64,000 bases of DNA from a virus. Numbering within the stretch: the first letter of the stretch is position 1; each line of letters starts with the position of its first letter. The notes below the pieces were generated by a model, which was given only the letters and a program-made list of their open reading frames with translations, searched no databases and was not told the DNA's origin. This document shows, piece after piece, positions 11,574-31,289 of the stretch. A program made the translations under genes and the position numbers. The stretch covers positions 37,211-101,210 of IMG/VR virus record IMGVR_UViG_3300043539_001475; one strand, given 5' to 3'.

Positions 11574-12392
11574 ATGGAAGAAAGAGAACCAAGATTAGGA
11601 GTAGCAGTTGGCAGAAAGGGTTGTGGCAAAACTTATACTACCAAACAAATGATACAAAAATATGTACAAGGAAACCCCTCGAAAGGGGTTATTCCTCGTA
11701 GGGTATTAGTATTAGATGTTAACGATGAGTTTGAGGACATAAGGGCTATTAGGGTTAGTGATGTTATGCGTTTTTCCGCACACCCAAAAGTAGAAGCTAG
11801 AAGGATAAGACCATTGCATGAAAACGGAGTTAGAATGACACTTACTGAAATTCAAGAGGTGCTATTCAAAATCTTAAACGATTATAGAGGTGGGCTTTTA
11901 TTGATTGAGGATATTAACAGATACATTTCTGATTATTTGCCTAATGACCTTGTGGGGGCTATATGCACCAACAGACATACGGATACAGATATTATTTTGC
12001 ATTTTCAATCGGTAGGAAGGATTTCACCTAAAATATGGCAGAACTTGAATTGGATTAGGTTTCACAAAAATACCGATTCAGTAGATAAACACCGTACAAA
12101 GTTTGAGGACAAATACGAATTATTGAAATTAGTAGAGAACTATGTTAATGCCGAGTATCATGCAGGAGACCAAAGAATTTATATTTATGTAGATATAGAT
12201 GATGAAAAAATAAAGGGAGTTGACCGTAAAAAGTTCGATGCTGTTTTAGACCAATATTTATCTGAAAATTACAGAAAGCTAATTTCCCCAATGTTACAAT
12301 CAAAGGATTTAGGTAAGGGCGCAAAGAAATATACACCTCAAGAAGCGGTGGCAATTCAAAAAGAACGAATAACCAAATATTATTTAACATAA
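11574..12392 (+). CDS. P-loop DNA-packaging-type ATPase (A32/FtsK-HerA-like)
   Basis: 272 aa. Walker A GRKGCGKT (13-20), a VLVLDVN strand (44-50), Walker B GGLLLIED (106-113) and a downstream HFQSVGRISPK loop (143-153) of the kind carrying the arginine/sensor residues in FtsK-HerA ATPases. The compact size and absence of a terminase nuclease domain match genome-packaging ATPases of tailless jelly-roll viruses (PRD1 P9, A32) or Zot-like secretion ATPases rather than a tailed-phage terminase. It lies upstream of the lysis cassette and capsid candidate. Confidence 0.7.
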   Translation: MEEREPRLGVAVGRKGCGKTYTTKQMIQKYVQGNPSKGVIPRRVLVLDVNDEFEDIRAIRVSDVMRFSAHPKVEARRIRPLHENGVRMTLTEIQEVLFKILNDYRGGLLLIEDINRYISDYLPNDLVGAICTNRHTDTDIILHFQSVGRISPKIWQNLNWIRFHKNTDSVDKHRTKFEDKYELLKLVENYVNAEYHAGDQRIYIYVDIDDEKIKGVDRKKFDAVLDQYLSENYRKLISPMLQSKDLGKGAKKYTPQEAVAIQKERITKYYLT

Positions 12393-12510: not shown

Positions 12511-12774
12511 ATGGAAAAAAAATTAGAAGAAAAAAAAAGAGGGTTTATTGCAAAATTATTTTGTGAAAAAAACGAACCAAGTTCAAAAAGATTTGTTGGC
12601 ATTATAGGGTCAATAACATTATTTAGTACTTTATTTGCAAACAGCTTTACGCATATAAGCCAAGCACCAAGCGAAGCATTGGTAAACGCAGTAGCATTAT
12701 TGTCTTTTGGTGCATTAGGTATCACTGGGGCAGAAAGAATATTTGGTAAAAAAGAAAATAATAACGAACAATAA
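12511..12774 (+). CDS. Holin-like protein
   Basis: 87 aa. Charged N-terminus, two hydrophobic helices (about 27-46 and 57-76, the second ending in GALGITGAERIFGKK) and a basic C-terminus. This matches the short two-span holin pattern of Bacteroidota phages. It starts the lysis cassette, directly before the M15 endolysin. It would permeabilise the inner membrane to release the endolysin. Confidence 0.6.
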   Translation: MEKKLEEKKRGFIAKLFCEKNEPSSKRFVGIIGSITLFSTLFANSFTHISQAPSEALVNAVALLSFGALGITGAERIFGKKENNNEQ

Positions 12775-12786: not shown

Positions 12787-13254
12787 ATGAAATTATCAGA
12801 GCATTTGGATTTATCAGAAGTAACAAGAAGTGAAACTGCAAAAAGAAAAGGTATTAGCAACATGCCGACACCAGAGCATTTGGAAAATTTTAAAAAATTG
12901 GCTGAAAATATTTTTGAACCGATTAGAAAACATTTTGGAGTGCCAATTCACATTTCAAGTGGATATAGAAGCAAGGCTTTAAATACTGCTATTGGCGGAA
13001 GTTTAACAAGTCAACATTGCCAAGGTGAGGCTATTGATATTGATATGGATGGTAGTTCTAATGGGGTTACTAACAAAATGGTATTTGACTACATAAAAGC
13101 TAATCTAAATTTTGACCAATTAATTTTTGAGTTTGGAACAAAAGATGCACCTGATTGGGTACACGTTTCATTTGAATCAACTGGAAAACAACGTAAGCAA
13201 ATTTTAAGAGCAATTAAAAGTGGTGGTAAAACTGCATACCAACCTTATGCGTAA
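12787..13254 (+). CDS. M15A zinc endopeptidase (endolysin)
   Basis: 155 aa. ISSGYRS, then Zn ligands His77 and Asp84 in SQHCQGEAIDID, catalytic-region F.QLIFEFG and DWVHVSF (His126): the complete D-Ala-D-Ala carboxypeptidase/endopeptidase set. It cleaves peptide cross-links in peptidoglycan. No signal peptide, consistent with export through the adjacent holin. Confidence 0.85.
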   Translation: MKLSEHLDLSEVTRSETAKRKGISNMPTPEHLENFKKLAENIFEPIRKHFGVPIHISSGYRSKALNTAIGGSLTSQHCQGEAIDIDMDGSSNGVTNKMVFDYIKANLNFDQLIFEFGTKDAPDWVHVSFESTGKQRKQILRAIKSGGKTAYQPYA

Positions 13255-13278: not shown

Positions 13279-14394
13279 ATGAAAAACCTATCAAAAGAAG
13301 AGTTATTGAGCAGATTGGAAGCAATCAATAGGAGCAATGCTATTATTTACTTTGACCTGCATGGTACTATATTAGGTGTCAATGACATTTTTTTAGAAGT
13401 AATGGGTTATGGAATAGGTAATCACGAAGAACTTATTGGAAAACACCATAGCACTTTTGTGTGTCAAGAATACGCAAAATCTCTTGAATATGAGAAGTTT
13501 TGGGACATATTAAGAAGCGGTAAATATTATCAAGGAGAATTTGAACGAAGAAAAAAAGATGGAAGTCTTATCAATCTTCAAGCAACTTATAATCCTATTT
13601 TTGATGATAGTGGCAAGATTACTAAAATAATGAAAATTGCTACTGATGTTAGTGCTATCGTTAGTAGTAAAAAACAGATAGATGCTATCAATAGAAGTAC
13701 AGCTCTTATTACTTTTAATGTTGAAGGAATCATAACAGATGTTAATTCTATATTTTTAGAAGCTATGGGATATAAATCTAATGAAAAAACTAAAATAATT
13801 GGAAAGCATCATAGTATTTTTGTAACTTATCAGTATTCACAGTCTGATGAATATAACAATTTTTGGGAAAATTTAAGAAAAGGTAAGTTTTTTGATGGAA
13901 TTTTTGAAAGGGTAAAAGTAGATGGTTCTACAATTTATTTACAAGCATCTTATAATCCTATCCTTGATAGTAAAGGCAACATTACAGATGTGGTTAAAAT
14001 TGCAACTGATATTACGGAATCTATAAATAGTAAGAAAAAAATAGAGGAACTAACAAATAATTTGAAATTTGAATTGGAAAACTCACAAAAACTTAAAGAT
14101 TCAATAGAAGTCGAAAAAAATATGGCTTTGAATGATTTAGATGTAATGATAAAAAAAAGTCAAAGTGAACTGATAAAAATAATCGTTAAATGTGCTTTAG
14201 CAGTAATAATTGGTGTTGGAATTGTAACTACTATATTATATTGGGTAGCGATTGTAACAAACAAAGAAACTCAAATAATTGGCTCAACTTGGAGTAATAT
14301 GTTTAGTGTTTTATTGACAAACGCATTTTCAATAGTTGGTACAATTATGGGCATTAAATATGCCACTCAAGAAAATAATAATAAAAATAATTAA
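13279..14394 (+). CDS. Two-PAS-domain membrane protein in the lysis cassette
   Basis: 371 aa. Two tandem PAS domains (about 14-125 and 135-247), each with the Aer/BdlA-type pattern: SNAIIYFDLHGTI..VND.FLE.MGY, IGKHHS.FV, FW..LR.GK...GEFER, LQATYNPI.D..G.I....KIATD. Then a coiled coil (about 250-285) and two C-terminal spans (about 295-320 and 335-360). No histidine kinase, GGDEF or MCP output domain. Flanked by an endolysin and a spanin-like gene, it may be a sensor that tunes membrane lysis, or a holin/antiholin fused to PAS domains. Confidence 0.75.
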   Translation: MKNLSKEELLSRLEAINRSNAIIYFDLHGTILGVNDIFLEVMGYGIGNHEELIGKHHSTFVCQEYAKSLEYEKFWDILRSGKYYQGEFERRKKDGSLINLQATYNPIFDDSGKITKIMKIATDVSAIVSSKKQIDAINRSTALITFNVEGIITDVNSIFLEAMGYKSNEKTKIIGKHHSIFVTYQYSQSDEYNNFWENLRKGKFFDGIFERVKVDGSTIYLQASYNPILDSKGNITDVVKIATDITESINSKKKIEELTNNLKFELENSQKLKDSIEVEKNMALNDLDVMIKKSQSELIKIIVKCALAVIIGVGIVTTILYWVAIVTNKETQIIGSTWSNMFSVLLTNAFSIVGTIMGIKYATQENNNKNN

Positions 14395-14399: not shown

Positions 14400-15050
14400 A
14401 TGATTACAACAATTAACAAAAATAGGATATTTACATGGGTATTACTAATATCTTGCTTGGTACTAGTTTCACAACTATTTCAAAAATGCGAAAGTGAGAA
14501 ATTACAATTAGCTAACGTGGAAGCTCTAAATAGTCAATCTAAAGTTTATAAGCTTAAAAATGGACAATTAGTAACTAGCGTTGAAACTTTATCTTATAGC
14601 AATAGTCAGTTAAAAAACTCTATTGTAATGAAAGATAAAAAAGTTAAAGAGCTAACTAATAAATTTTCTAAAGTTCAATCTCTTACAAAGTATGTTACAA
14701 ACACAAAATTTGATACAATAGAGCTTCGATACAAAGATACCGTACCTTGCGTATTTGAAAGAAAAGATAGTTTATTAAAGGAATGGTATCATATAGCTTA
14801 TAAGTCAAATCAAAAGGGAATTGAAATAACCGAACTATCAATACCAGACAGTGTGATTGTAGTTACTGGAATTAAGAGAAAATGGTTTTTAGGTAAGCAA
14901 ACACAAACCACAGATATAACTCATGCAAACCCATTTGTTCAGACTAACAATGTTCAACACATTGAAGTAGTAACTCAAAAAAAATGGTACGATACTTTCC
15001 TATTTAAAGTCGGATTAGGATTTATAGGCGGAGTTTTAATAACTAAGTAA
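14400..15050 (+). CDS. Spanin-like protein (DUF6549-type)
   Basis: 216 aa. Short N-terminus, one span (about 11-26), an LKNSIVMKDKKVKEL coiled coil, then a beta domain with DTVPC, KRKWFLGKQ and a C-terminal hydrophobic segment (FKVGLGFIGGVLI). This is the layout of Bacteroidota phage proteins found just after holin and endolysin and thought to act in the final envelope-disruption step. It ends the lysis cassette; a terminator follows. Confidence 0.6.
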   Translation: MITTINKNRIFTWVLLISCLVLVSQLFQKCESEKLQLANVEALNSQSKVYKLKNGQLVTSVETLSYSNSQLKNSIVMKDKKVKELTNKFSKVQSLTKYVTNTKFDTIELRYKDTVPCVFERKDSLLKEWYHIAYKSNQKGIEITELSIPDSVIVVTGIKRKWFLGKQTQTTDITHANPFVQTNNVQHIEVVTQKKWYDTFLFKVGLGFIGGVLITK

Positions 15051-15079: not shown

Positions 15080-15105
15080 AGCTATCGGAAACGGTGGCTT
15101 TTTTT
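15080..15105 (+). terminator. Rho-independent terminator
   Basis: AGCTATCG / CGGTGGCT 8-bp stem (two G-U pairs) with a GAAA tetraloop, then seven T. It ends the lysis-cassette transcript and separates it from the capsid candidate. Confidence 0.85.
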
Positions 15106-15262: not shown

Positions 15263-15388
15263 ATGAGAAACGAGATTAAAAAGGTTACAAAGATTACAAA
15301 GATTACAAAGATTACAAAGATTACAAAGATTACAAAGATTACAAAAACATTAGCCATCGTAATAGATGGAGTTTTAATAGCTAATTAA
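15263..15388 (+). CDS. Possible 41-aa peptide with ITK repeats
   Basis: Opens with MRNEIKK, then VTK and six ITK triplets, then TLAIVIDGVLIAN. Its end resembles the end of the preceding spanin-like gene (GVLITK) at both DNA and protein level, so it may be a degraded duplicate. Coding is uncertain. The rest of the 15106-15483 gap is AT-rich with no other feature I can name. Confidence 0.3.
   Translation: MRNEIKKVTKITKITKITKITKITKITKTLAIVIDGVLIAN
15284..15346 (+). repeat. 9-bp tandem repeat (attacaaag), about 7 units
   Basis: One gttacaaag, five attacaaag and one attacaaaa, head to tail, between the lysis cassette and the capsid candidate. Could be iteron-like or a coding microsatellite of the small frame that overlaps it. 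Confidence 0.85.
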
Positions 15389-15483: not shown

Positions 15484-16185
15484 ATGTCAGTAAGAAATTA
15501 TTTAGCAAGAGCGCAAAGAAGCGCAATGGAGAATTTTTCTAATGCAGATGGATTTATAGATGATGATTTATCATTCTCTGGTGAAGACTTCTTCAATGCA
15601 CAAGGAAATTCAATGATAGGGCAACAAGCGGCTCAAACGTCTCAACCATATATTATAGATATTACATCTACTTCTGGTTCAGCAGTATCAAATTTTGAAG
15701 TATTAGGGTCTTACCAATACATCAATAACGCAGGTTTTACACCAAACGGAGAATTGACTATTGGGTCAATTACAGTTAGTTCTGGAATTTCAGACATCTC
15801 TTATAGAGAGATGCTATATCAATTTATGAACAATCCTTATTCTGTTGGTTTGACTTATATTCAATCAGCTACGGCTAACCAAGTATTAGAAACTCTTTCA
15901 GTTAACACTAAAGATGCAAATGGTAACTTGGCTCAAAAGACTTTAGTTCCGACTATTGACCCTTACCAACAACAAACTACAATCATTGCAATGAAATATG
16001 CTTATCGTATTGATGGTTTCACAAAAATCATCATCCGTCAAATTCTTGCAAATGCAACTGTAAAACTTTACTTCTACCCAGCAGACAACATAAACCTTGC
16101 TCGTGCTTTAGGAGGACAGTCAGTTAGTAAACAATTTGGTTCTCCAAAAGTTGCTAGTGGACAAACTATTAAGATTGCGCAATAA
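15484..16185 (+). CDS. Candidate major capsid protein (jelly-roll-like)
   Basis: 233 aa, no membrane span. After a helical acidic N-terminus (about 1-50) the protein is almost entirely beta strands: YIIDITSTSGSAVSNFEVLGS, a YREMLYQFMNNPYSVGLTYI segment, TIDPYQQQT and IIIRQILANATVKLYFYPAD. This order (xxITN-like first strand, NPY..GL.Y turn, IDP.Q loop, late hydrophobic strand) resembles jelly-roll capsid proteins of tailless bacterial viruses. It is alone between two strong terminators, as expected for a highly expressed gene. A shorter relative may lie at 46907. Confidence 0.55.
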   Translation: MSVRNYLARAQRSAMENFSNADGFIDDDLSFSGEDFFNAQGNSMIGQQAAQTSQPYIIDITSTSGSAVSNFEVLGSYQYINNAGFTPNGELTIGSITVSSGISDISYREMLYQFMNNPYSVGLTYIQSATANQVLETLSVNTKDANGNLAQKTLVPTIDPYQQQTTIIAMKYAYRIDGFTKIIIRQILANATVKLYFYPADNINLARALGGQSVSKQFGSPKVASGQTIKIAQ

Positions 16186-16761: not shown

Positions 16762-17529
16762 ATGAACGAACTATCAAATTTAGGGGCAGATGTAATTGTA
16801 AACAGCGTTATAGAAAATAGAGGCGATGTTGTAGACTTACTTTTTAAAAACGGAGCAATAGTGCCTGACGACTTAACTAATTTAGAGTTGTCTCAAATAG
16901 TCACAGAGCTTTTAAAAAATTCAAGTAATTTCCAAAATGAATATTTGGATTTTATAACTAATCTTATAATTTCAAAAAATCAGATTGTAACGAGTAATTA
17001 TAGTAACTTAGATGGTGATTTTTACAATGAAGATGAGATGGGTAATTATAATAACGTAGAAGGAACTTTTTACGATGTAGATGAAATGAGTGATTATAAT
17101 AACTTAGAAGGAACTTTTTACGATGAAGATGAAATGAGTGATTACAGTAATGCTGTAGGTAGCTTTTCAGATACTTTTAGCGTAGCTCCAAGTCCTTTTA
17201 CTCCAAAAAATACAGCTCAGACTAGTCCAAGTACAGGTTCAACAAATACAACAACTACAACGCCAAGAACTGGATTTACGTTAGATAAAGGCTTAGATAT
17301 TATAACCAAAGGTTTAAATGCTTTTTTAACTTTAGATACTAACAAAACAAATAGAGCTTTGGCAGATGCTTCTGTAAAAACTACTCAATCTTCAACGATT
17401 ATTAGTACGCCAGATACATATACAAAAACTAAAAAATCAAATACTACAACGTATGTTATTTTAGCATTAGTGGGTGTTTTAGTAGTTGGTGGTGGAATTA
17501 TGTATGCAGTTAAACGTAAAAATTCTTAA
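16762..17529 (+). CDS. Tail-anchored protein with acidic FYDEDEM repeats
   Basis: 255 aa. Three repeats of the form YNN-EGTFYDEDEMSDYNN (about 75-130), then a Ser/Thr/Pro linker and a C-terminal span (YVILALVGVLVVGGGIMYAV) with KRKNS tail. Acidic repeats may bind cations or another virion protein. Family not recognised. Confidence 0.65.
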   Translation: MNELSNLGADVIVNSVIENRGDVVDLLFKNGAIVPDDLTNLELSQIVTELLKNSSNFQNEYLDFITNLIISKNQIVTSNYSNLDGDFYNEDEMGNYNNVEGTFYDVDEMSDYNNLEGTFYDEDEMSDYSNAVGSFSDTFSVAPSPFTPKNTAQTSPSTGSTNTTTTTPRTGFTLDKGLDIITKGLNAFLTLDTNKTNRALADASVKTTQSSTIISTPDTYTKTKKSNTTTYVILALVGVLVVGGGIMYAVKRKNS

Positions 17530-17531
17530 TT

Positions 17532-17843
17532 ATGTCTTTTTTTACAACAGACGCAGGACGAAACACTATAGGTGCAGGTATAAACAGTTTATTGAGCTTA
17601 GGAGTAACAGCAGTAGGTGCTAATCAAGACAGAAAATTATTAGCAGGTCAAGCAAATATTTCGGCTCAACAAAATCAAACCGCAATAGAAGTCGAGAGAG
17701 AAAGAACAAGACAAGCTCAATTAAACCTCGAAGCTTCAAGGGCTAAAGCTCCAGAATCTGGAAGTAAGGCTCTTTACATTGGATTAGCAATAGGAGGAGT
17801 AGTTATTTTAGGAGGTATTATTTTTGCGGTAACTAGAAAATAG
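17532..17843 (+). CDS. Tail-anchored glycine-rich/coiled-coil protein
   Basis: 103 aa. Small-residue-rich amphipathic helix (GAGINSLLSLGVTAVGANQ), Gln/Glu coiled coil (about 40-70), C-terminal span (LYIGLAIGGVVILGGIIFAV). The layout recurs in the genes at 45563 and 46113. Confidence 0.65.
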   Translation: MSFFTTDAGRNTIGAGINSLLSLGVTAVGANQDRKLLAGQANISAQQNQTAIEVERERTRQAQLNLEASRAKAPESGSKALYIGLAIGGVVILGGIIFAVTRK

Positions 17844-17849
17844 AAAAAA

Positions 17850-18074
17850 ATGGGAGCAGTAAAAGGTTACATGGCAGATGTAAAAAGCATTGTGAGTAAG
17901 GACAAAAGAGATATTCTATTGCATACATCAAAGGCTTCGGTTAACGGAGCTGTCACTGGTCTTGTGCTAGGACTAATGATAGGATATTACAAAAACAAAA
18001 ATGTTTATGTAAGTGGTCTTATAGGAGCCGTAGTTGGCGGTGTTGCCACTGCAATTATTGTATCTAAAAAATAA
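17850..18074 (+). CDS. Two-span glycine-zipper membrane protein
   Basis: 74 aa. Basic N-terminus, hydrophobic helix 1 (AVTGLVLGLMIGYY), basic turn KNKN, helix 2 (SGLIGAVVGGVATAIIV) with GxxxG spacing. Glycine zippers favour tight helix packing or pore formation. No family named. Confidence 0.65.
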   Translation: MGAVKGYMADVKSIVSKDKRDILLHTSKASVNGAVTGLVLGLMIGYYKNKNVYVSGLIGAVVGGVATAIIVSKK

Positions 18075-18079
18075 AAAAA

Positions 18080-18565
18080 ATGGAAAATAAAACCACAATT
18101 GGTATTGGAGTTGTATTGTTAGCAGGTGTTGGGTATTACTTATACACCAAAAACAAAAAAAATCAAACTCCTTTGGTTAATATGCCAAATAAACCTGCTT
18201 TACCTACTTTTGATAGGGATAAAGCTTCAAGAGAGTGGGCGGAATTGCAGTTTAAAAGAGAAGCTGAGTTTAGGGCTAAAAATAACGGCGTGGTTAAGCA
18301 AGGTGTCTCTTTGGTTACTGATGCAAAAACTGGAAAAATAACTGAGGTAGCTGTGATGAATAAAATTAAATCAGAGCTTAATCTTTACTATGACATGTTA
18401 AAAGTTTTAAATTCTATTACAGATGATTCTGATGCTGAATTTATGTTTAATCAATATAAAACAATCTTTAAATCAGGTGATGATAGGAATTATAAACCAG
18501 ACTTAAATACTCAAATTAGAACGGATTCTATTCTAAAAAAATATCCAAGCGCAAGAATCGATTAA
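18080..18565 (+). CDS. N-anchored hypothetical protein
   Basis: 161 aa. Residues 5-20 form a span (TIGIGVVLLAGVGYYLY) followed by KNKK, then a soluble helical domain. This N-anchor form (short N-terminus, 16-18 hydrophobic residues, basic stop) is used by most genes from here to 33 kb. Confidence 0.65.
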   Translation: MENKTTIGIGVVLLAGVGYYLYTKNKKNQTPLVNMPNKPALPTFDRDKASREWAELQFKREAEFRAKNNGVVKQGVSLVTDAKTGKITEVAVMNKIKSELNLYYDMLKVLNSITDDSDAEFMFNQYKTIFKSGDDRNYKPDLNTQIRTDSILKKYPSARID

Positions 18566-18584
18566 TTAAAATAAAAAACAAAAA

Positions 18585-18866
18585 ATGGATAATAAAAAAA
18601 TTATTATAGGAGTTGGTGCAGTTGTTTTATTAGGTGTAGTTTACTACATGATGACAAAAAAGAAAGCGCCATATACAATACAATGGAAAGGAGACCCTAC
18701 TGGGGCTGTTTTTGTAGTTATAAATGGTAAGAAATATGGTTTTATTAGTGGAAAAGCATTTGATGCTTATGGGCGTTCGGAGCCTAAATCAGTTACAAAA
18801 GAAGAAGTAGACGCTATTCCTAGTGGGGGAAGGGTTGACGAACTTGGAAAAGTTGTTCCGAATTAA
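18585..18866 (+). CDS. N-anchored hypothetical protein
   Basis: 93 aa. N-terminal span (IIIGVGAVVLLGVVYYMM) and TKKKAP, then a small beta domain (YTIQWKGDPTGAVFVVINGKKYGF). Unrecognised. Confidence 0.6.
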   Translation: MDNKKIIIGVGAVVLLGVVYYMMTKKKAPYTIQWKGDPTGAVFVVINGKKYGFISGKAFDAYGRSEPKSVTKEEVDAIPSGGRVDELGKVVPN

Positions 18867-18917
18867 AAACTGTATATGGAAAAGGTTTGAAAAAAAGGCA
18901 TCAATAAAAATAAAAAC

Positions 18918-19592
18918 ATGAAGAAATTAAATTTATTAGGTATATTAGCGATAGGAGGAATTGGTTATTACTTGTTAAAAAACAAAAAATCAAAGCCAAT
19001 TTCTTCATCGTCAGCTCCATATACTAAAGAAATAACTTCGGAAAATAAATTAGTTGAATATCCTGTCAATACCTATGCTAAAATTAATACAGCCCCATCG
19101 CCAATTACAAATTGGAGTGGAAATAATAACATGCCAACTCCAATAAAAGTCGATGTTAGCTCCGTTAGTACAATTAAGCCGAGTACAACTACTGTAAAAA
19201 ATAATTCAAGCGTAAAAATAGAAAATGCGTTATCGCCTCTAGGAATTGCTAATCCAAAAGCATTGCCTAAACTTAGTTTAATTGACGCTGTTAGTAAAAC
19301 AGTATTTGATTTATATCCTAAAGACGGAATTTGGAAAGCAGAACCATGGCAATTAAATAATCCTTTATGGGATAGGTATGGAATTGAAAAAGCAATGAAT
19401 GAAAATCACAGTAATTATATTGGAATGGGAACTAAATTTTTAATTTTAAATCCTTCTAAAAGAAACAAATATACTGCTTATGTAGACCAATTTGGAAATA
19501 TAATTGATGCTGGAAGGACTGCAAATGGCACGGCTATGGCTTCTGCTCTTGCAATTTCACAATATAGAATAAAAAATAACATACCTTTTTAA
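18918..19592 (+). CDS. N-anchored hypothetical protein with C-terminal globular domain
   Basis: 224 aa. N-terminal span (LLGILAIGGIGYYLL), Ser/Pro/Thr linker to about residue 100, then a globular region with two Trp-containing segments (DGIWKAEPWQLNNPLWDRYGIE). Not recognised. Confidence 0.6.
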   Translation: MKKLNLLGILAIGGIGYYLLKNKKSKPISSSSAPYTKEITSENKLVEYPVNTYAKINTAPSPITNWSGNNNMPTPIKVDVSSVSTIKPSTTTVKNNSSVKIENALSPLGIANPKALPKLSLIDAVSKTVFDLYPKDGIWKAEPWQLNNPLWDRYGIEKAMNENHSNYIGMGTKFLILNPSKRNKYTAYVDQFGNIIDAGRTANGTAMASALAISQYRIKNNIPF

Positions 19593-19606
19593 AAAAATAA
19601 AATAAA

Positions 19607-19720
19607 ATGGAAAATTTATCAAAAAATACAAAAATAATAATCGTATTAGGTCTTTTAGGATTATCTTATTATCTTTGGAATCAGCAGAAAAAAAATAAAA
19701 ACACTAATTTAAAAAAATAA
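19607..19720 (+). CDS. Mini membrane protein (37 aa)
   Basis: MENLSKN, span (IIIVLGLLGLSYYLW), then a QQKKNK tail. The A-rich leader (aataaaATG), spacing and N-anchor composition match its neighbours. Confidence 0.55.
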   Translation: MENLSKNTKIIIVLGLLGLSYYLWNQQKKNKNTNLKK

Positions 19721-19725
19721 TAATT

Positions 19726-19872
19726 ATGAGTCAGATACAAAATCAAAATATGTCAAAAAATGAAAAACAAAAATCTCTTACCAAAACTTTGGTTAGTGTG
19801 GGAGCGAGTGTATTGGTGCTGTTTGCAACCGTTTGGGTTATAGGCATTGCTTGGAAAAAAAGCCAAAACTAA
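19726..19872 (+). CDS. Mini membrane protein (48 aa)
   Basis: Polar Gln/Asn N-terminus of about 20 residues, one span (LVSVGASVLVLFATVWVIGIAW) and a KKSQN tail. Starts five bases after the previous stop. Confidence 0.55.
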   Translation: MSQIQNQNMSKNEKQKSLTKTLVSVGASVLVLFATVWVIGIAWKKSQN

Positions 19873-19884
19873 TAATTTTAGATT

Positions 19885-20013
19885 ATGGATAAAAAAACAA
19901 TCGGGAGCATTTTAGTAGTCTTAGGGATAGGTGCTTTAACTTATCTATATGTCGGCTACCTTAGACCTAAACAACAAGGAATACAAGACGCATTACGAGA
20001 AAATAAAAAATAA
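19885..20013 (+). CDS. Mini membrane protein (42 aa)
   Basis: MDKK, span (TIGSILVVLGIGALTYLYVGYL), then RPKQQGIQDALRENKK. Same operon spacing as its neighbours. Confidence 0.55.
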   Translation: MDKKTIGSILVVLGIGALTYLYVGYLRPKQQGIQDALRENKK

Positions 20014-20018
20014 CAACA

Positions 20019-20324
20019 ATGGAAGATGAATTATTGGGTAAAAGTGCAAATCAGCTATGGAAAGAAAGCGGAACTACTTTAAGTTTTAAAGATTGGATTC
20101 AAAGAGAAAAAGAAAAGGGAATGTTAATTCCTAATAAATTAATTAATGATTCCATTGCTTTAATTAAGAGTAGGGTTGGCATAAGAGATAGCGAAATTAG
20201 CAATGTTTCTTTAGAACAAGGAACTTCTAAAACAGTTTTAGGATTAAATAAATTGGCTATAATATCAAGTGTTTTAATTATTGGGGGGGCTTTGGCTTAC
20301 AACTTTTATAAAAAAAGAAAGTAA
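20019..20324 (+). CDS. Tail-anchored hypothetical protein
   Basis: 101 aa. Soluble helical N-terminus (SANQLWKESGTTLSFKDWIQREKEKG), C-terminal span (LAIISSVLIIGGALAYNF) and KKRK. The NQLWKESG..LSFKDWI..E motif occurs in other phage-related Bacteroidota proteins, role unknown. Confidence 0.6.
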   Translation: MEDELLGKSANQLWKESGTTLSFKDWIQREKEKGMLIPNKLINDSIALIKSRVGIRDSEISNVSLEQGTSKTVLGLNKLAIISSVLIIGGALAYNFYKKRK

Positions 20325-20326
20325 AT

Positions 20327-21112
20327 ATGAATTTTAGACTTCAGACAAGATACGATGAGATGTGTTTGGTTATCAATTTAGCCGTAAAAACACCAACAGT
20401 TGTAAGAATAAAAATTTATGACGAAATGAAGCCTAAAATAGTCTTTACAGATAGGTATAAAACTGTTTTTTCAGAAGAAACTTTTTATGTTAGATTGCCC
20501 CTTACATCTGATAACATAGTAATTTCTATTTATGATGATAAAATAGGTAATATGCCAAAGGAACAAGAGAATAATATAATGATTAAAGTAATTGATAAAA
20601 TTCCTTTGGAAAAAAGACTTGATGTAGTTGATGTAAAAAATAGAACCGTTGCTAATTTTATAAATTTCGCTCAGAGGTTTTGTTATAATTCAGCATATTT
20701 AGAATCTAATAAAGCGTACCAATCTGATGATGGAGAGTTTTTAATAGAACTTGAACCATATATAACTGGAAAAAACGGAAATACTTTAACAACGCCAGCA
20801 AGAATCTCTAAAGTAACTGGAAGGATTCAAGTGTCAAAAAAAGAATTTGATACCTATACAGTGCCTATGAAGTTTGCTATTTTGTGCCATGAGTTTTCGC
20901 ATTTTTATTTGAATGAAAATATGGACGATGAGAGCGAAGCAGATATAAATGGTTTGTTAATATATTTAGGATTAGGTTATCCTAGAATTGAGGGATACCA
21001 AGCTTTTTTAGAAGTTTTTAAGGACAGCCCTAACGAGCAGAATAAAAAGCGTTTCGACAGAATTGATGCTTTCATACAAAATTTTGAAAAAAATAAAATG
21101 ATTTTACAATAA
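20327..21112 (+). CDS. HExxH zinc metallopeptidase-like protein
   Basis: 261 aa. Residues 1-95 look like a beta-sandwich. The C-terminal domain carries HEFSH (188-192) inside FAILCHEFSHFYL, then ESEAD (202-206) about ten residues on, as in gluzincin-type peptidases where a Glu or Asp supplies the third ligand. No signal peptide or span. It is the only obvious enzyme within the run of small membrane proteins, so it could mature virion proteins or cut a host barrier. Confidence 0.65.
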   Translation: MNFRLQTRYDEMCLVINLAVKTPTVVRIKIYDEMKPKIVFTDRYKTVFSEETFYVRLPLTSDNIVISIYDDKIGNMPKEQENNIMIKVIDKIPLEKRLDVVDVKNRTVANFINFAQRFCYNSAYLESNKAYQSDDGEFLIELEPYITGKNGNTLTTPARISKVTGRIQVSKKEFDTYTVPMKFAILCHEFSHFYLNENMDDESEADINGLLIYLGLGYPRIEGYQAFLEVFKDSPNEQNKKRFDRIDAFIQNFEKNKMILQ

Positions 21113-21117
21113 AAATT

Positions 21118-21390
21118 ATGAAAACAAAAAATATATTGATTGGTGCGGGGGTTTTAGTGGTTGGTTACTTGCTTTTGAAAAAAAGTAAAAATAATCAGCA
21201 ACCTTTTAATATTCAGACAATAGTAAAAGACCAATCTAAAGCAGTTGTAGGCAGACCTATGACAGAAGATGAGTTGAAAAAGTTTAAATGCGAAATGGAA
21301 TATTCTAAATTAGCAAAGCCAATGGTTATGATGCCTCCAGAATATTGGAGTAAACGGAAAGAAGAATGGATGAAAGCTAATTGTAAATAA
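21118..21390 (+). CDS. N-anchored hypothetical protein
   Basis: 90 aa. N-terminal span (ILIGAGVLVVGYLLL) + KKSK. The C-terminal region has two Cys and a basic Trp-rich helix (PPEYWSKRKEEWMKANCK). The span is nearly the same as in the genes at 21399 and 21971 (LLIGAGIL/LLIGAGVL), which suggests duplication. Confidence 0.6.
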   Translation: MKTKNILIGAGVLVVGYLLLKKSKNNQQPFNIQTIVKDQSKAVVGRPMTEDELKKFKCEMEYSKLAKPMVMMPPEYWSKRKEEWMKANCK

Positions 21391-21398
21391 ATAAAAAC

Positions 21399-21968
21399 AT
21401 GAAAATAGATAACAAAAAATTATTGATTGGTGCAGGTATATTAGCCGTTGGAACTGCAATATACCTATTCTTAAAAAATAAACGCAATAAAAGTCAGGTT
21501 GGAATATTAGATGACGAATCGATAGAAATTGACTATAATAACGCAAGTGGTAAACCCTCTTCTACTGCTAGTGGAATAGCAAGCGGAGTAGAAAAACCTT
21601 TGTCGGTTAACGATTATAATACTAGTATAGAAAAGGCATTAAATGATAAAAAATATCAAAATTACATAGGACAAAAAATATATACTCTAGTTGATAATGT
21701 GAATGTAAGAATGGGTGCAAATGTAAATAATGGTATATTTCATAACAAAGCTGGCACAATACCAAAGAAAAAAACATTTATAGGAAAGGTAGTTACTGCA
21801 AAATTAGGAAATGATAAAAAAATATGGTTTGCGGTAAATGAAGAAAACTCAAATATATTATATAATGTTAAAAAGCATTTTAATTGGAGCATTTATTTAG
21901 AAAGAGACCCTTCTCTACGTTGGTTTAGGTCGGATGTAGTAATTGTTAAATTAGATAAAAATAAATAA
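21399..21968 (+). CDS. N-anchored protein with SH3b-like domain
   Basis: 189 aa. N-terminal span (LLIGAGILAVGTAIYLFL), linker, then a C-terminal region with YTLVDNVNVRMGANVNNG, close to the VNVRSGPS pattern of bacterial SH3 domains that bind cell walls. Weak but suggestive, given the PG-binding domain at 22352. Confidence 0.5.
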   Translation: MKIDNKKLLIGAGILAVGTAIYLFLKNKRNKSQVGILDDESIEIDYNNASGKPSSTASGIASGVEKPLSVNDYNTSIEKALNDKKYQNYIGQKIYTLVDNVNVRMGANVNNGIFHNKAGTIPKKKTFIGKVVTAKLGNDKKIWFAVNEENSNILYNVKKHFNWSIYLERDPSLRWFRSDVVIVKLDKNK

Positions 21969-21970
21969 AA

Positions 21971-22339
21971 ATGGAAATAGATAAAAAAAAATTATTGATT
22001 GGTGCAGGGGTTTTAGTAATTGGGTACTTAGCTTATAAAAGTATGAAAAATAAGTCTACTATATCTAAAACAGTAGTTGCTCCTACTGTTGATACTATTG
22101 TTAAACCTACTGTTCGTACTGCTGTCGCTTTAACACCAGAGCAAGAAAAAATACAATTATTTGAAAGAGGTGTTTTAAGTTATGAAGGGGGCGTTGCTCC
22201 AAATAAAATGGTTTTAGACAATATTGCAAAAACAAGAAATGATGCGCTTGCTAAAATTAAGAATTTAATGCTAGATGCAGAATTTGCTACTTGGAAAAGC
22301 AAACGTACAATAGATAAAAAAGCTCCTCCAAGACAATAA
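21971..22339 (+). CDS. N-anchored hypothetical protein
   Basis: 122 aa. KKKLLIGAGVLVIGYLAY span, TVDTIVKPTV linker, helical C-terminus. Related at the anchor to the two preceding small proteins. Confidence 0.6.
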   Translation: MEIDKKKLLIGAGVLVIGYLAYKSMKNKSTISKTVVAPTVDTIVKPTVRTAVALTPEQEKIQLFERGVLSYEGGVAPNKMVLDNIAKTRNDALAKIKNLMLDAEFATWKSKRTIDKKAPPRQ

Positions 22340-22351
22340 AAAATAAAAAAT

Positions 22352-22648
22352 ATGAACTCAAAAACATTAAAATACGGACTTATTGGTGGGGCGGTTTTAG
22401 TAGCTATATACATCTTTAATAAAAAAAGTTTTAAAGGCACATCACAAGACCCTAATATAGACGAGCCTAGCGCAGTTGCAGACAAGGACAAATATTTGTC
22501 ATTAGGTTCAACTGGTTTGGAAGTTATGTTGCTACAAAAAGCTCTTGGAAATCTTGCAGTAGATGGTATTTTTGGAGTTAAAACACAAGCTAGATTAAAA
22601 GAGGTAAAAGGGCTTAGTTTAATCACACTTAATCAATTAAATAAATAA
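22352..22648 (+). CDS. N-anchored peptidoglycan-binding-domain protein
   Basis: 98 aa. N-terminal span (YGLIGGAVLVAIYIF), then residues about 50-95 with LSLGSTGLEVMLLQKAL..LAVDGIFGVKTQARLKEV, the PG_binding_1 three-helix pattern (usually G..G..V..LQ..L...DG.FG..T). It has no catalytic domain, so it may tether a virion or membrane to the cell wall during entry. Confidence 0.75.
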   Translation: MNSKTLKYGLIGGAVLVAIYIFNKKSFKGTSQDPNIDEPSAVADKDKYLSLGSTGLEVMLLQKALGNLAVDGIFGVKTQARLKEVKGLSLITLNQLNK

Positions 22649-22651
22649 AAA

Positions 22652-22870
22652 ATGAATCGCAAATCATTTTATATATTAGGAGGTTCGTTAGCCGTTATTA
22701 TTGCCGTTTTGTATTTCACAAAAAACAAGGCTATAATAGTTAAAAAAGAAGAGCGAGTTGTCACTGGGGGTCAATCAGCGACTATACCACCAATGGAAGC
22801 TCCGACTTTAAGAACTCCTCCTTTAGTTGGAGATGTTTGGCTTACTCTCAAAGGAATATTTAATAAATAA
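22652..22870 (+). CDS. N-anchored hypothetical protein
   Basis: 72 aa. N-terminal span (FYILGGSLAVIIAVLYFT) + KNK, then a Pro-rich tail. Three bases after the previous stop. Confidence 0.6.
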   Translation: MNRKSFYILGGSLAVIIAVLYFTKNKAIIVKKEERVVTGGQSATIPPMEAPTLRTPPLVGDVWLTLKGIFNK

Positions 22871-22887
22871 CAATTAAAACAATAAAA

Positions 22888-23151
22888 ATGGATGACAAAA
22901 AATTTAAAATAGCAGGATTGTTGATTTTAGCTGTTGGGGCTTATTTCTTATATTCAAGGGTAAAGCTTAATCAAAAAGTTGGAGATGTGGACGCTATTAT
23001 TTCTTCTGGAAATTCTTCTAACAAGCCAGTTTTACTTACGTTCCAAAAAGAATTTCTTTCTGCATGGGCTAGTGCTATAAAACAAAGTATCCCTACGTTT
23101 GTATTTGAGAATAAAACATACAACACTAAAGGCGGAAAAGCAATTAAATAA
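22888..23151 (+). CDS. N-anchored hypothetical protein
   Basis: 87 aa. Span (IAGLLILAVGAYFLYS), short linker, small C-terminal domain with LLTFQKEFLSAWASAIKQ and FENKTYNTKGGKAIK. Confidence 0.6.
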   Translation: MDDKKFKIAGLLILAVGAYFLYSRVKLNQKVGDVDAIISSGNSSNKPVLLTFQKEFLSAWASAIKQSIPTFVFENKTYNTKGGKAIK

Positions 23152-23162
23152 AAAATATAAAA

Positions 23163-23672
23163 ATGGAATCTAAATTTATATCAAAAGCAGGTGATTTTAT
23201 TGCTAATAATAAAAAGCCATTAATATATGTGGGAGGTGCTATTGCAATTGTTGTAATAGGGTATTCCATTATTAGAAAATTGCAAGGTGGTATTGGCTCA
23301 TTTCTAAAAGACAAAAGTGTCGGAGCAAAAGACTTTGTGCCAGTTCAGGTAGATGTTGCAAAATCTACAATTTCAGATGCCATTGCTAATAACTATGCAA
23401 ATCAATTGTTTAACGCTATGGATGGTTTTGGAACTAATTCAAGTGCAATTTACGAGATTATAAATAAGCTACAGCAAAAGGAAGATTTTAGAAAAGTGTA
23501 CAACTCTTTTGGAAGAAAAAGTTACTACATAGACGGAAGTCCTACTGCAAGCGCTTATATTTTTGGTTACAAAAACCTAGATTTAATCGAATGGTTGGAT
23601 AAAGAAGTTGGGTACTCGAATCCATTAACATACAACTTAGTTAAAAAAACAATTAAAAACGCAAATTTATAA
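23163..23672 (+). CDS. Membrane protein with annexin-like repeat pattern
   Basis: 169 aa. Span at about 19-39 (PLIYVGGAIAIVVIGYSII), then ANQLFNAMDGFGTNSSAIYEIINKLQQKEDFRKVYNSFGRKSY. The A..L..AM.G.GT....I..I...L pattern is that of one annexin repeat, also seen in isolated form in Bacteroidota phage and conjugative-element proteins. Whether the fold is annexin is unproven. Confidence 0.55.
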   Translation: MESKFISKAGDFIANNKKPLIYVGGAIAIVVIGYSIIRKLQGGIGSFLKDKSVGAKDFVPVQVDVAKSTISDAIANNYANQLFNAMDGFGTNSSAIYEIINKLQQKEDFRKVYNSFGRKSYYIDGSPTASAYIFGYKNLDLIEWLDKEVGYSNPLTYNLVKKTIKNANL

Positions 23673-23676
23673 AAAA

Positions 23677-24570
23677 ATGAGAAAAACATTAGCAAAAAAA
23701 ATGCCTTCTAAAGCATCTTCACCAACTAGCGGTGTTTTATTTAAACCATCAAAAGTTTTAGGTGTAAAAGTTCCAAGACCAGAAAAAAATAAAATTCAGC
23801 CAAGAATTTTAGGCGGAAAAATTGCACGACCATCCTCAAAATTAGTTGCGGATATTTCTTTAGGGCTAACACCTAAAAAGTCAAATGCAAATTTACCTAG
23901 CACAAGTTTAGCATCTTTATCTGATTGCGAACAAAAAGCAAGGCAAAAAATGTCGAATATGAGATTCATATCAGCTAAAGCTATGAGTGATTACAAAACA
24001 GACTTTATAGCTAAATGTATGGGCGTAAAAACAGTACTGCCAGTACCGCAAAGTATTCCACAAAAAGAACAAGAAAATAAATATTCGCAGATGTTAAGTA
24101 TGATACCTAATGAGTTTGTAATTAAGTCAAGTGGCTATAATACATCTTACTATAAAGGCAAATCTAATATTCATACAAAATTAAGCGCTACAACGGTTGG
24201 GATTGGTACTGGTTCTCCAATACAAATTTCTAATGAAGAATTTATAGATGCTTACAGTCAATTTTTGAAACAACCAAAAGTAATGATGCCGATAATGCCA
24301 TCAGCGCCATCAGCGCTATCAGCGCCATCAGCGCCATCAGCGCCATCAGAAATAACATCAGATTCAGAGTTAGAGCAAGAGCAAGAGTTAGAAACTATTA
24401 CTCCTAGTAATTCTGCTGATACTGTTGCTCCTATTAATCCTACTAATAATGGCACATCCAACATTCAAGTTAATAGTGCGCCTAAAACAAAAAAAACTAA
24501 TTACTTATTGTATTTTGTTTTGGCTATTTCTAGCGTAATAGTTTTAAAAAAATTTTTAAAAAAAAAATAA
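23677..24570 (+). CDS. Tail-anchored Pro/Ser-rich protein with SLGL motif
   Basis: 297 aa. Basic N-terminus with repeated RILGGKIARP-type segments, a [10 protein letters not shown] motif (about 66-75) shared with the array that follows, a globular middle, SAPSA repeats (about 208-228), an acidic linker and a C-terminal span. The shared motif links it to the 24.7-32.4 kb family, but its anchor is at the opposite end. Confidence 0.65.
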   Translation: MRKTLAKKMPSKASSPTSGVLFKPSKVLGVKVPRPEKNKIQPRILGGKIARPSSKLVADISLGLTPKKSNANLPSTSLASLSDCEQKARQKMSNMRFISAKAMSDYKTDFIAKCMGVKTVLPVPQSIPQKEQENKYSQMLSMIPNEFVIKSSGYNTSYYKGKSNIHTKLSATTVGIGTGSPIQISNEEFIDAYSQFLKQPKVMMPIMPSAPSALSAPSAPSAPSEITSDSELEQEQELETITPSNSADTVAPINPTNNGTSNIQVNSAPKTKKTNYLLYFVLAISSVIVLKKFLKKK

Positions 24571-24571
24571 T

Positions 24572-24703
24572 ATGAAAAGCTCAACAATTTTATTAGTCGT
24601 TGGTGGATTAGCAATAGGTTATTTATATTTAGAAAATAAAAAACCACAATCTACCGTATCAAAAAAAGTCAAGCAAATCAATCAAAAGCTAAAACAACTT
24701 TAA
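24572..24703 (+). CDS. Mini N-anchored protein, truncated array member
   Basis: 43 aa. [26 protein letters not shown], then a short tail. Nearly the same leader as the next gene ([25 protein letters not shown]), so probably a shortened copy at the upstream edge of the paralogue array. Confidence 0.6.
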
Positions 24704-24713
24704 AAAAAATAAG

Positions 24714-25895
24714 ATGAAAAATTCAACAATTTTATTAGGCGTAGGTGGATTAGCAATAGCGTATTTTTATTTAAAAAATAAAAAACCACTATCTACTACA
24801 TCGACAACTCAAACAAATGAACCAACAGGTTCAACAGGTTCAACAGGTTCAACAGGTTCAACAGGTTCAACAGGTTCAACAGGTTCAACAGGTTCAACAA
24901 GTTCAACAGGGTCAACAGGGTCAACAGGGTCAACAGGGTCAACAGGGTCAACAGGGTCAACAGGGTCAACAGGGTCAACAGGGTCAACAGGGTCAACAGG
25001 GTCAACAGGGTCAACAGCATTAGTGGAAGAAATGGAAGAAATGGAACCAACGGTACAAACATCACCAACGGTACAAATACCTCCAACGGTACAAATACCT
25101 CCAACGGTACAAACATCACCAACGGTACAAATACCTCCAACGGTACAAATATCTCCAACGGTACAAACATTACCAACGGTACAAACATCACCAACGGTAC
25201 AAACATTACCAACGGTACAAATACCTCCAATAATTATACCTTCTGTGGCTGATATTTCTTTAGGATTACAACCTATAACTACAACTACAAAACCTACAGT
25301 AGACACGGTTGTATCGGCATTTGCAGAAACGCAAACTGAAAACTATAAAAAAGCAAGAGAATTGTCAAGAAATATTAGCGCTCTTTTAATTAAAGTTGAT
25401 TTATACAAAACTAAGAAAACTAAAAATAAAATCAGAAACGAAATATCAGATAAAACAAAGCAAGCAAATGCTTTGGGGTACAAAATATTGCCTTACGGTG
25501 AAATTGTAGCATTGAACGCTGTTGCAGATATTTCTTTAGGATTAAAACCAACAACCGCTAACACACCAAGTTTTTTGACAAGAATTTTAGGAGGAACACT
25601 TACACCAAGTGCTTTAACTCAAGCAAGTAGTATGTCAACTCCAGCAAGTAGTGTGAAAACTCTACCAAGTTTTTTAGGAGGAGGACGAAGTATTACACCA
25701 AGTGTTTTAACTCAAGCAAGTAGTATGTCAACTCCAGCAAGTAGTGTATCAACTCCAATAAATAGTATAAAAATTTTCGGAGGAAGAGTAATTCCAGTAA
25801 GCCCAACAAGTAGTGTAAAAACTCCGCCAATTTTTTTAGGGGGGCGAACAAGCGCAACAACAAATAGTTTTCTGTCAAAATTAAAAAGAAGATAA
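24714..25895 (+). CDS. Array paralogue 1: N-anchored repeat protein
   Basis: 393 aa. N-terminal span + KNKKP, 21 GST/SST triplets (about 39-101), ten 6-residue TVQ(T/I)xP units, a [10 protein letters not shown] motif, a coiled helical domain ([16 protein letters not shown]...), the [13 protein letters not shown] motif, a second [10 protein letters not shown], and Ser-rich [10 protein letters not shown] repeats to a basic end. Downstream of the repeats it is almost identical to the next gene, so the duplication is recent. Confidence 0.7.
24828..25016 (+). repeat. 9-bp microsatellite, 21 units (GST)
   Basis: Eight ggttcaaca units, one agttcaaca (SST), then twelve gggtcaaca units. The blockwise T-to-G change shows stepwise expansion of a variant unit. 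It encodes a flexible GST stalk just after the membrane anchor. Confidence 0.95.
25050..25229 (+). repeat. 18-bp tandem repeat, 10 units (TVQxxP)
   Basis: Ten in-frame acggtacaaayaycwcca-type units encode TVQTSP / TVQIPP / TVQTLP variants directly after the GST stalk. Shorter versions occur in the paralogues at 25897 and 27641. Confidence 0.9.
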
Positions 25896-25896
25896 T

Positions 25897-26823
25897 ATGA
25901 AAAGTTCAACAATATTAGGGGTTGGGATAATATCAGTAGTTGGTGTGGGTGCGTATTTTTATTTAAAAAATAAAAAACCACTATCGACAACATCGACAAC
26001 AGGGTCAACAGGGTCAACAGGGTCAACAGGGTCAACAGGGTCAACAGGGTCAACAGGGTCAACAGGGTCAACAGCATTAGTGGAAGAAATGGAAGAAATG
26101 GAACCAACGGTACAAACATCACCAACGGTACAAACATCGCCAACGGTACAAACATCGCCAACGGTACAAACATCGCCAACAATTACACCTTCTGTGGCTG
26201 ATATTTCTTTAGGATTACAACCTATAACTACAACTACAAAACCTACAGTAGACACGGTTGTATCGGCATTTGCAGAAACGCAAACTGAAAACTATAAAAA
26301 AGCAAGAGAATTGTCAAGAAATATTAGCGCTCTTTTAATTAAAGTTGATTTATACAAAACTAAGAAAACTAAAAATAAAATCAGAAACGAAATATCAGAT
26401 AAAACAAAGCAAGCAAATGCTTTGGGGTACAAAATATTGCCTTACGGTGAAATTGTAGCATTGAACGCTGTTGCAGATATTTCTTTAGGATTAAAACCAA
26501 CAACCGCTAACACACCAAGTTTTTTGACAAAAATTCTTGGACGAACACTTACACCAAGTGTTTTAACTCAAGCAAGTAGTATGTCAACTCCAGCAAGTAG
26601 TGTGAAAACTCTACCAAGTTTTTTAGGAGGAGGACGAAGTATTACACCAAGTGTTTTAACTCAAGCAAGTAGTGTATCAACTCCAATAAATAGTATAAAA
26701 ATTTTCGGAGGAAGAGTAATTCCAGTAAGCCCAACAAGTAGTGTAAAAACTCCGCCAATTTTTTTAGGAGGACGAACAAGCGCAACAACAAATACTTTTC
26801 TGTCAAAAGTAAAAAGAAGATAA
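25897..26823 (+). CDS. Array paralogue 2
   Basis: 308 aa. Same architecture as paralogue 1 but with 8 GST units and 4 TVQTSP units; the conserved helical and C-terminal parts are nearly identical at DNA level. The copy-number difference between otherwise matching genes is direct evidence of repeat slippage or recombination. Confidence 0.7.
   Translation: MKSSTILGVGIISVVGVGAYFYLKNKKPLSTTSTTGSTGSTGSTGSTGSTGSTGSTGSTALVEEMEEMEPTVQTSPTVQTSPTVQTSPTVQTSPTITPSVADISLGLQPITTTTKPTVDTVVSAFAETQTENYKKARELSRNISALLIKVDLYKTKKTKNKIRNEISDKTKQANALGYKILPYGEIVALNAVADISLGLKPTTANTPSFLTKILGRTLTPSVLTQASSMSTPASSVKTLPSFLGGGRSITPSVLTQASSVSTPINSIKIFGGRVIPVSPTSSVKTPPIFLGGRTSATTNTFLSKVKRR
26002..26073 (+). repeat. 9-bp microsatellite, 8 units (GST)
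   Basis: Eight identical gggtcaaca units, the second version of the array seen at 24828-25016. Confidence 0.95.
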
Positions 26824-26824
26824 T

Positions 26825-27157
26825 ATGAAAAGTTCAACAGTATTAGGAATTGGCTTATTAGCAGTACTCGGAGTAGGGGCTTATATTTATTTAAAAAATA
26901 AAAAAGCAACCAAATCAAGTGTAACTTTACCTAGCACAAAAAACACATCAAATACAACAGGCGTTAAAACTTCTTTGTCGGATGATTCTTTAGGATTAAA
27001 ACCAACTCCAACAAATATTGCAAAAACTTCTGTGTCGGATGCTTCTTTAGGATTAGAACCAACCCCAACAAGTAGTGTAAAAACTCGACCAATTTTTTTA
27101 GGGGGGCAAACAAATCCAGCAATAAGTATGATAATGTCAAAAGTAAAAAGAAGATAA
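26825..27157 (+). CDS. Array paralogue 3 (short)
   Basis: 110 aa. Leader MKSSTVLGIGLLAVLGVGAY + IYLKNKK, two SLGL motifs (DDSLGLKP, DASLGLEP), then the basic C-terminus shared with paralogues 1 and 2 (SKVKRR). It lacks the helical domain and the ILPYG motif. Confidence 0.65.
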   Translation: MKSSTVLGIGLLAVLGVGAYIYLKNKKATKSSVTLPSTKNTSNTTGVKTSLSDDSLGLKPTPTNIAKTSVSDASLGLEPTPTSSVKTRPIFLGGQTNPAISMIMSKVKRR

Positions 27158-27158
27158 T

Positions 27159-27629
27159 ATGAAAAGCTCAACAATATTAGGTCTTGGGATAATATCAGTA
27201 ATTGGGGTGGGTACTTATATTTACTTAAAAAGTGGTAAAATACCATTTTTAGATAAATTTTTAGGAGAACTTTCTCCAACAAGCGGTAAAGTAAATAACA
27301 CGGGAAGTACAACAGCTACAACAGGCAGTACAACAACTCCAACAAGCAATAAACCAACAAATACAGCTTCTGTAGCTGATATTTCTTTAGGATTACAGCC
27401 TAAACCTACAGTAGATACAGTTGTTTCAGCATTTTCAGAAACACAAACTGAAAACTATAAAAAAGCAAGAGAATTGTCAAGAAATATTAGCGCTCTTTTA
27501 ATTAAAGTTGATTTATACAAAACTAAGAAAACTAAAAATAAAATCAGAAACGAAATATCAGATAAAACAAAGCAAGCAAATGCTTTGGGTTACAAAATAT
27601 TGCCTTACGGTGAAATCGAAAAAATGTAA
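27159..27629 (+). CDS. Array paralogue 4
   Basis: 156 aa. N-terminal span, SGKIPFLDKF segment, Thr/Gly linker, [10 protein letters not shown], the same helical domain as paralogues 1-2, ending at [15 protein letters not shown]. This is the basic form of the family without the extra C-terminal region. Confidence 0.65.
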   Translation: MKSSTILGLGIISVIGVGTYIYLKSGKIPFLDKFLGELSPTSGKVNNTGSTTATTGSTTTPTSNKPTNTASVADISLGLQPKPTVDTVVSAFSETQTENYKKARELSRNISALLIKVDLYKTKKTKNKIRNEISDKTKQANALGYKILPYGEIEKM

Positions 27630-27640
27630 ATTAAAATAAT

Positions 27641-28168: not shown

Positions 28169-28179
28169 ATTAAAATAAT

Positions 28180-28671: not shown

Positions 28672-28712
28672 ATTAAAATAATGTAAATTAAAATAATGTA
28701 AATTAAAATAAT
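28668..28712 (+). repeat. 15-bp tandem repeat at array junction
   Basis: Three copies of atgtaaattaaaata cover the stop codon and leader between paralogues 6 and 7. The same unit occurs about twice at 29267-29296 and once at other junctions, the pattern left by unequal recombination between gene borders. Confidence 0.85.
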
Positions 28713-29270: not shown

Positions 29271-29296
29271 ATTAAAATAATGTAAATTAAAATAAT

Positions 29297-29716: not shown

Positions 29717-29723
29717 ATAAAAT

Positions 29724-30472: not shown

Positions 30473-30476
30473 TAAT

Positions 30477-31091: not shown

Positions 31092-31094
31092 ATT

Positions 31095-31289
31095 ATGCCA
31101 GCAGGAAAAATATACGATACAGACGAAACAACTAGAATAAAAGATTTTCTAAATATTCAGACTAAAGAATTGAAAGCTTTAGAATCAGAAAAATCGGTTA
31201 CAGATAAAACTGTAATTCGTTATGCTATAGTCATCTCTGGTGCTGTAATTGTTTTGTTAGCAGTAAAGTTTTTAACAAGAAAAAAATAA
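31095..31289 (+). CDS. Small tail-anchored protein
   Basis: 64 aa. Charged helical N-terminus, C-terminal span (YAIVISGAVIVLLAVKFL) + TRKK. Two bases before the next array gene. Confidence 0.6.
   Translation: MPAGKIYDTDETTRIKDFLNIQTKELKALESEKSVTDKTVIRYAIVISGAVIVLLAVKFLTRKK

Follow-up and report, generated by a model that had tools for sequence, protein, structure and literature searches.

Lysis timing is a main life-history trait of phages, and it has long been asked to what input the holin clock responds. Holin/antiholin pairs are known from phages lambda (S105/S107) and T4 (T/RI), and the T4 antiholin RI is signal-responsive. We analyzed a 64,000-nucleotide stretch of DNA, hereafter the window, which comes from a 101-kb IMG/VR virus record and encodes a PAS protein within a lysis cassette. 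Like the window protein, which ends in a membrane hairpin, the lambda and T4 proteins are small or hairpin membrane proteins encoded beside an endolysin, but they lack the cytoplasmic PAS sensor that the window protein has. PAS sequence, fold and the Trp/His/Asn FAD residues are shared with MmoS, NifL, Aer and AerC, and the tandem arrangement of the PAS domains is that of MmoS. These proteins signal to kinase, NifA or methyl-accepting domains, whereas the window protein is phage-borne, lies in a lysis cassette and has the C-terminal membrane hairpin as its sole output. Its tandem PAS is 38-45% identical to those of BdlA-type PAS-PAS chemoreceptors (methyl-accepting proteins, MCPs) and other relatives on bacterial plasmids; unlike BdlA-type MCPs it carries no methyl-accepting domain, and its coiled coil enters two transmembrane (TM) segments, TM1 and TM2. 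A phage PAS protein that couples a small-molecule signal to the lysis decision is VqmA of phage VP882 (PMC8284805, PMC12802170). VqmA is a soluble DNA-binding transcription regulator, whereas the window protein is bound to the membrane and lacks a DNA-binding domain. Nothing on point was found in the open-access literature for PAS together with a holin, an antiholin or a lysis cassette.

The PAS protein and its lysis cassette

The cassette (Table 1) is flanked by genes for a HerA/FtsK-like ATPase (11574-12392) and a candidate capsid protein (15484-16185), and its genes are separated by 5-24 bases. The initial annotation had placed the PAS gene between an M15 endolysin gene and a spanin-like gene, and the M15 endolysin was confirmed. 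It had not mentioned the small two-TM protein encoded upstream of the endolysin, which found no database name in Pfam, PHROGs or NCBIfam and is the likelier holin of the cassette. The product of the gene that follows the PAS gene combines an N-terminal TM segment with a coiled coil and by eye has no clear lipobox; 'spanin-like' is an unproven label that fits it by position and shape. Terminator-like sites in the region numbered six, compared to 0.9 in shuffled sequences. A short tandem repeat (15275-15345, unit like 'aaagattac') lies downstream of the cassette, before the candidate capsid gene.

Table 1. Features of the lysis cassette and of the PAS protein in the window
Feature	Position	Strand	Evidence
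87-aa two-TM protein (TM86/TM87 family), candidate holin	12511-12774	+	two hydrophobic segments
M15 peptidase endolysin	12787-13254	+	Pfam Peptidase_M15_3, E 2e-20; PHROG endolysin, E 4e-39
PAS-PAS-coiled coil-TM hairpin protein	13279-14394	+	ORF, 371 aa
PAS1 (residues 20-124)	13336-13650	+	FAD-type residues N35, H57, W75; MmoS/NifL alignments; model pLDDT ~85
PAS2 (residues 142-245)	13702-14013	+	FAD-type residues N156, H178, W196; AlphaFold2 model
Coiled-coil helix (residues 246-298)	14014-14172	+	runs unbroken into TM1 (AlphaFold2 helix 246-327)
TM1 (residues ~300-327)	14176-14259	+	hydrophobicity and AlphaFold2 model
Invariant TM2 block (residues 331-363, TQIIGSTWSNMFSVLLTNAFSIVGTIMGIKYAT)	14269-14367	+	alignment of 30 members
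N-TM coiled-coil protein, spanin position	14400-15050	+	DUF6549, E 9e-8; phrog_14010, E 2e-8
Terminator-like hairpin and T run closing the cassette	15080-15099	+	8 pairs

Two PAS domains were recognized in the protein by Pfam (PAS_3, E 9e-25; PAS_9, E 1e-22), and NCBIfam returned 'PAS domain S-box' (E 1e-29). No non-PAS Pfam family scored above the cut-off, and the scan thus contained neither an output domain nor the MCP signaling domain. There was also no match to the defense system components of PADLOC-DB or to the holin families in Pfam, PHROGs and NCBIfam. Two hydrophobic segments are present at the C-terminus (residues ~298-316 and ~341-359). The AlphaFold2 model, which is moderately confident (pLDDT 73, pTM 0.36), consists of PAS1, PAS2, a single helix that becomes TM1, a short turn and a TM2 helix (residues 332-365). 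A hairpin-only product from a conserved internal start was considered and rejected, the internal Met residues near positions 282 and 290 being variable among aligned members.

The closest PDB sequences to the PAS domains were MmoS, NifL and Aer, and the best fold match of the model was the tandem PAS of the FAD redox sensor MmoS (E 2e-16); the heme-PAS structures DosP and FixL also fit the fold. FAD-binding PAS domains (clusters 4, 9 and 14) are marked by a Trp at F-alpha plus His and/or Asn, the FAD residues listed for Aer, NifL and MmoS (PMC10468136). We placed these residues in PAS1 by alignment to MmoS and NifL and in PAS2 through its alignment to PAS1, and the triads of both domains were invariant in an alignment of 30 diverse members. 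The protein therefore combines a PAS fold with the conserved Trp plus His/Asn of FAD-binding domains. These sequence data support assignment of both domains to the Aer/NifL/MmoS redox type, and they probably hold FAD. The Aer/BdlA-type PAS domains, the two C-terminal membrane spans and the missing signaling output domain of the initial annotation were all borne out.

The TM2 block was invariant in 30 of 30 diverse aligned members and is more constrained than the PAS domains. Synonymous sites vary freely within it (four-fold degenerate sites differ by 0.50 compared to 0.42 overall), which rules out a DNA element as the cause of the invariance and indicates that selection acts on the protein. 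TM2 is amphipathic (moment 0.286 vs 0.127 in shuffles, P 0.010), with a small/polar face made up of S336, N340, S343, T347, S351, G354 and G358. In hhalign comparisons, the hairpin showed no relationship to the TM86 holin-like family (probability 0.3%), a second TM86 subfamily (0.2%) or the three-TM family c19 (1.8%).

Distribution and linkage to lysis genes

Relatives of the whole PAS protein numbered 269 in viral contigs, and the C-terminal hairpin, searched with the last 80 residues of the query, was present at 582 or more loci in IMG/VR. Two forms of the family share this hairpin, one with two PAS domains (~371 aa) and one in which a single PAS domain replaces the two (~249 aa); the aligned two-PAS set is 77-94% identical to the window protein. 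The hairpin was not found in 50,697 GenBank phage records, nor in ~790 Bacteroidota genomes (395 of the phylum and 397 of the Winogradskyella MAG family), a scan for which the same query recovered ten of ten virus records as a control. Bacterial relatives, chemoreceptors and histidine kinases, align to the PAS part alone (residues ~4-308), and the annotated plasmid relatives of this part are chemoreceptors. One GenBank phage match, MT836939, was discarded as a bacterial chemoreceptor contig. This entry (MT836939.1, 'Bacteriophage sp.') carries genes for a bacterial chemoreceptor with two PAS domains and for a GGDEF/EAL-like protein, and is probably a mislabeled bacterial contig. Given that the PAS-hairpin family is common, yet unnamed in phage databases and without a match among GenBank phage records, it has probably been overlooked. 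Judged by terminase, 7 of 20 records come from tailed phages. Low G+C, start contexts and a 54% match of the M15 endolysin to a Flavobacterium phage point to Bacteroidota as the likely host group, and from general knowledge of IMG/VR sources we take the carriers to be mostly aquatic.

Dereplication left 112 neighborhoods, and the 75 in which each flank of the PAS gene exceeded 2.5 kb were used for counting. ORFs close to the PAS gene served to build the endolysin models, which were then run on all ORFs of the loci; representatives were checked against Pfam and PHROGs. An endolysin was encoded within 1.5 kb of the PAS gene in 69 of the 75 neighborhoods (92%), and a TM86-type two-TM holin-like gene within 2.5 kb in 61 (81%). 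A Phage_holin_4 gene was nearby in 15, such that one or the other holin-like gene was present in 63 of 75 and neither was recognized in 12. At least one lysis gene (endolysin, TM86 or Phage_holin_4) was found in 72 of 75; the exceptions were loci L294, L008 and L047. By ORF rank, the endolysins fell within three ORFs of the PAS gene and ranks 4-10 were nearly empty (2 hits). All recognized lysis genes up to three ORFs away were on the same strand as the PAS gene. The linkage of the PAS gene to lysis genes is far above chance. The neighboring endolysins belong to four unrelated types (GH19, GH24, M15 and PG-binding). When endolysin type was mapped onto a tree of 68 two-PAS proteins, it switched about 28 times, the minimum possible being 8. 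This argues that the PAS gene is linked to lysis itself rather than to any single enzyme or phage lineage. The initial annotation had suggested looking for PAS genes next to endolysins in other Bacteroidota phages and had named homologs found only outside lysis cassettes as evidence against its idea. The association instead recurs across many unrelated phages.

At L081:3520-4140, a 206-aa N-TM protein that adjoins the PAS gene (with a relative in L072) may by eye be another sensor-like domain; it had no clear match in Pfam. In the cultured Cellulophaga phage phi19:1, gp108 (L383:4202-4924) is a 240-aa protein with an N-terminal TM segment, encoded beside a weakly holin-like gene and near a lysozyme gene. 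A predicted structure from phi19:1 that matched the PAS model probably belongs to this protein, which is perhaps a second, unrelated case of a sensor among lysis genes, in an isolate.

Sibling viruses with and without the PAS gene

A set of 39 IMG/VR loci encodes the capsid-like protein and ATPase of the window. Most of these siblings keep a small TM gene, an endolysin gene and a spanin-like gene between the ATPase and capsid-like genes without a PAS gene; apart from the window itself, only the records of L002 and L022 have the PAS gene in this cassette. In L347 the TM87, M15 and spanin-like genes are all present and the PAS gene is absent. Other PAS-less siblings either retain the TM87 family at its position or have unrelated small TM proteins there. 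L348 and L352 display an empty site, in which the M15 stop is followed by AATTAAAAATTATGATTACAA; in the window this sequence covers the PAS gene's end together with the following start, as in a clean one-gene insertion. Since siblings keep the cassette without the PAS gene and the empty site is clean, the gene is an optional addition to a cassette that occurs without it as well. The PAS gene of L008 is located elsewhere in the genome, at a distance of more than 10 kb from the lysis cassette of this virus. Within the window lineage, the four PAS proteins form a clade (95/82) nested in a larger set dominated by phages with GH19 endolysins, which fits a single acquisition by transfer.

The spanin slot of the siblings holds two overlapping ORFs, and spanin pairs often overlap. 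A multi-TM gene of 109-113 aa lies between TM87 and M15 in PAS-less siblings (L355:3125-3454 and L360:3098-3439), and its family also adjoins the PAS gene in L010 and L070. The window virus has a HerA/FtsK-like ATPase and no Terminase_6N, and its candidate capsid protein (233 aa) gave weak jelly-roll-like matches (Z up to 6.1; model pLDDT 55). The lineage of 39 related loci possibly consists of large (~100 kb) tailless, membrane-containing phages. Elsewhere, the window encodes numerous small proteins that share an N-terminal TM segment ('MKSSTVLGIGLLAVLGVGAYIYLK', ~17500-33000), adjacent sulfotransferase-like and APS-kinase-like genes (43306-44622), and a tmRNA on the - strand (59162-59518) with the tag VDQVNANMSKVFSLINPNVEELQLVA.

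A candidate role in lysis timing

We lean toward a model in which the PAS protein is a membrane-anchored redox sensor that sets phage lysis time through the cassette's own small two-TM holin. One or two cytoplasmic PAS domains, probably with FAD, would monitor redox state in the infected cell, and a redox change would travel down the continuous coiled-coil helix to TM1 and the invariant TM2. The small/polar face of TM2 might then act within the membrane on the small two-TM holin, as an antiholin or as a trigger, and hole formation and release of the neighboring endolysin would thereby depend on the host energy state. We infer all of flavin binding, signal direction, holin partner and effect on timing. 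Several observations run against this model. Three of 75 neighborhoods have no recognized lysis gene and the L008 gene is distant from its cassette, 12 of 75 have no recognized holin-like gene nearby, and the hairpin showed no sequence similarity to TM86 or to nearby small TM families that would have indicated a partner. In addition, tandem PAS proteins can bind heme or no cofactor, and the structural model is of moderate confidence.

The main alternative, which we consider unlikely, is a moron unrelated to lysis, namely a membrane-bound energy sensor that alters host behavior or signaling and is tolerated in late operons that accept insertions. Such a passenger would be expected often at other late-gene sites, yet nearly all PAS genes counted are close to endolysins of several families. 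Likewise, the constraint on TM2 exceeds that on the PAS domains, which is more readily explained by a specific partner in the membrane than by simple anchoring. Points that agree with a moron are the clean insertion of one gene at the endolysin/spanin-like boundary, the chemoreceptors and histidine kinases among its bacterial relatives, and the PAS gene that L008 carries outside its lysis cassette.

It is also improbable that the PAS protein itself forms the hole, as a sensor-gated holin with two TM segments in an N-in/C-in topology and with TM86 as antiholin or second holin. As in holins, there are TM spans (two) and a location in lysis cassettes, the hairpin has an amphipathic, invariant TM2, and TM86 and Phage_holin_4 are missing nearby in a minority of neighborhoods. 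However, the siblings retain the cassette without the PAS gene (these viruses are unisolated and their lysis is assumed to be normal), another holin-like gene is encoded in most neighborhoods, 371 aa is large for a holin, and there is no conserved internal start for a short hairpin-only form. Its optional presence and the other holin-like gene in most phages favor a regulator, and the PAS protein is more likely a modulator of a separate holin, whether antiholin or trigger, than the holin itself. The initial annotation had interpreted the spans as a holin/antiholin; the antiholin part may hold, and the holin part is less likely because a separate two-TM gene persists in PAS-less siblings. Its outline of a sensor among lysis genes is supported, and lysis timing may, as it suggested, be set by host metabolic state. 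Finally, binding of heme or a small ligand in place of FAD, which would report oxygen or a host metabolite with the membrane action unchanged, is improbable as well, since neither PAS domain shows variation in its FAD triad and an FAD sensor gave the best structural match, even though tandem PAS proteins with other cofactors exist in the literature and heme-PAS structures match the fold.

Extending the model of a redox sensor that acts on a separate holin, we tentatively propose that the family may be a mobile, self-contained, redox-gated switch in which an FAD-PAS unit, working through the hairpin, times lysis post-translationally according to host respiratory state. It would have spread across tailed phages and a lineage without a recognized terminase (possibly tailless), re-pairing with unrelated endolysins. 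Pairs with and without the PAS gene within one virus lineage provide a ready natural comparison. If the model is true, a widespread redox sensor in lysis cassettes would directly couple lysis in aquatic phages to the energy state of the host.
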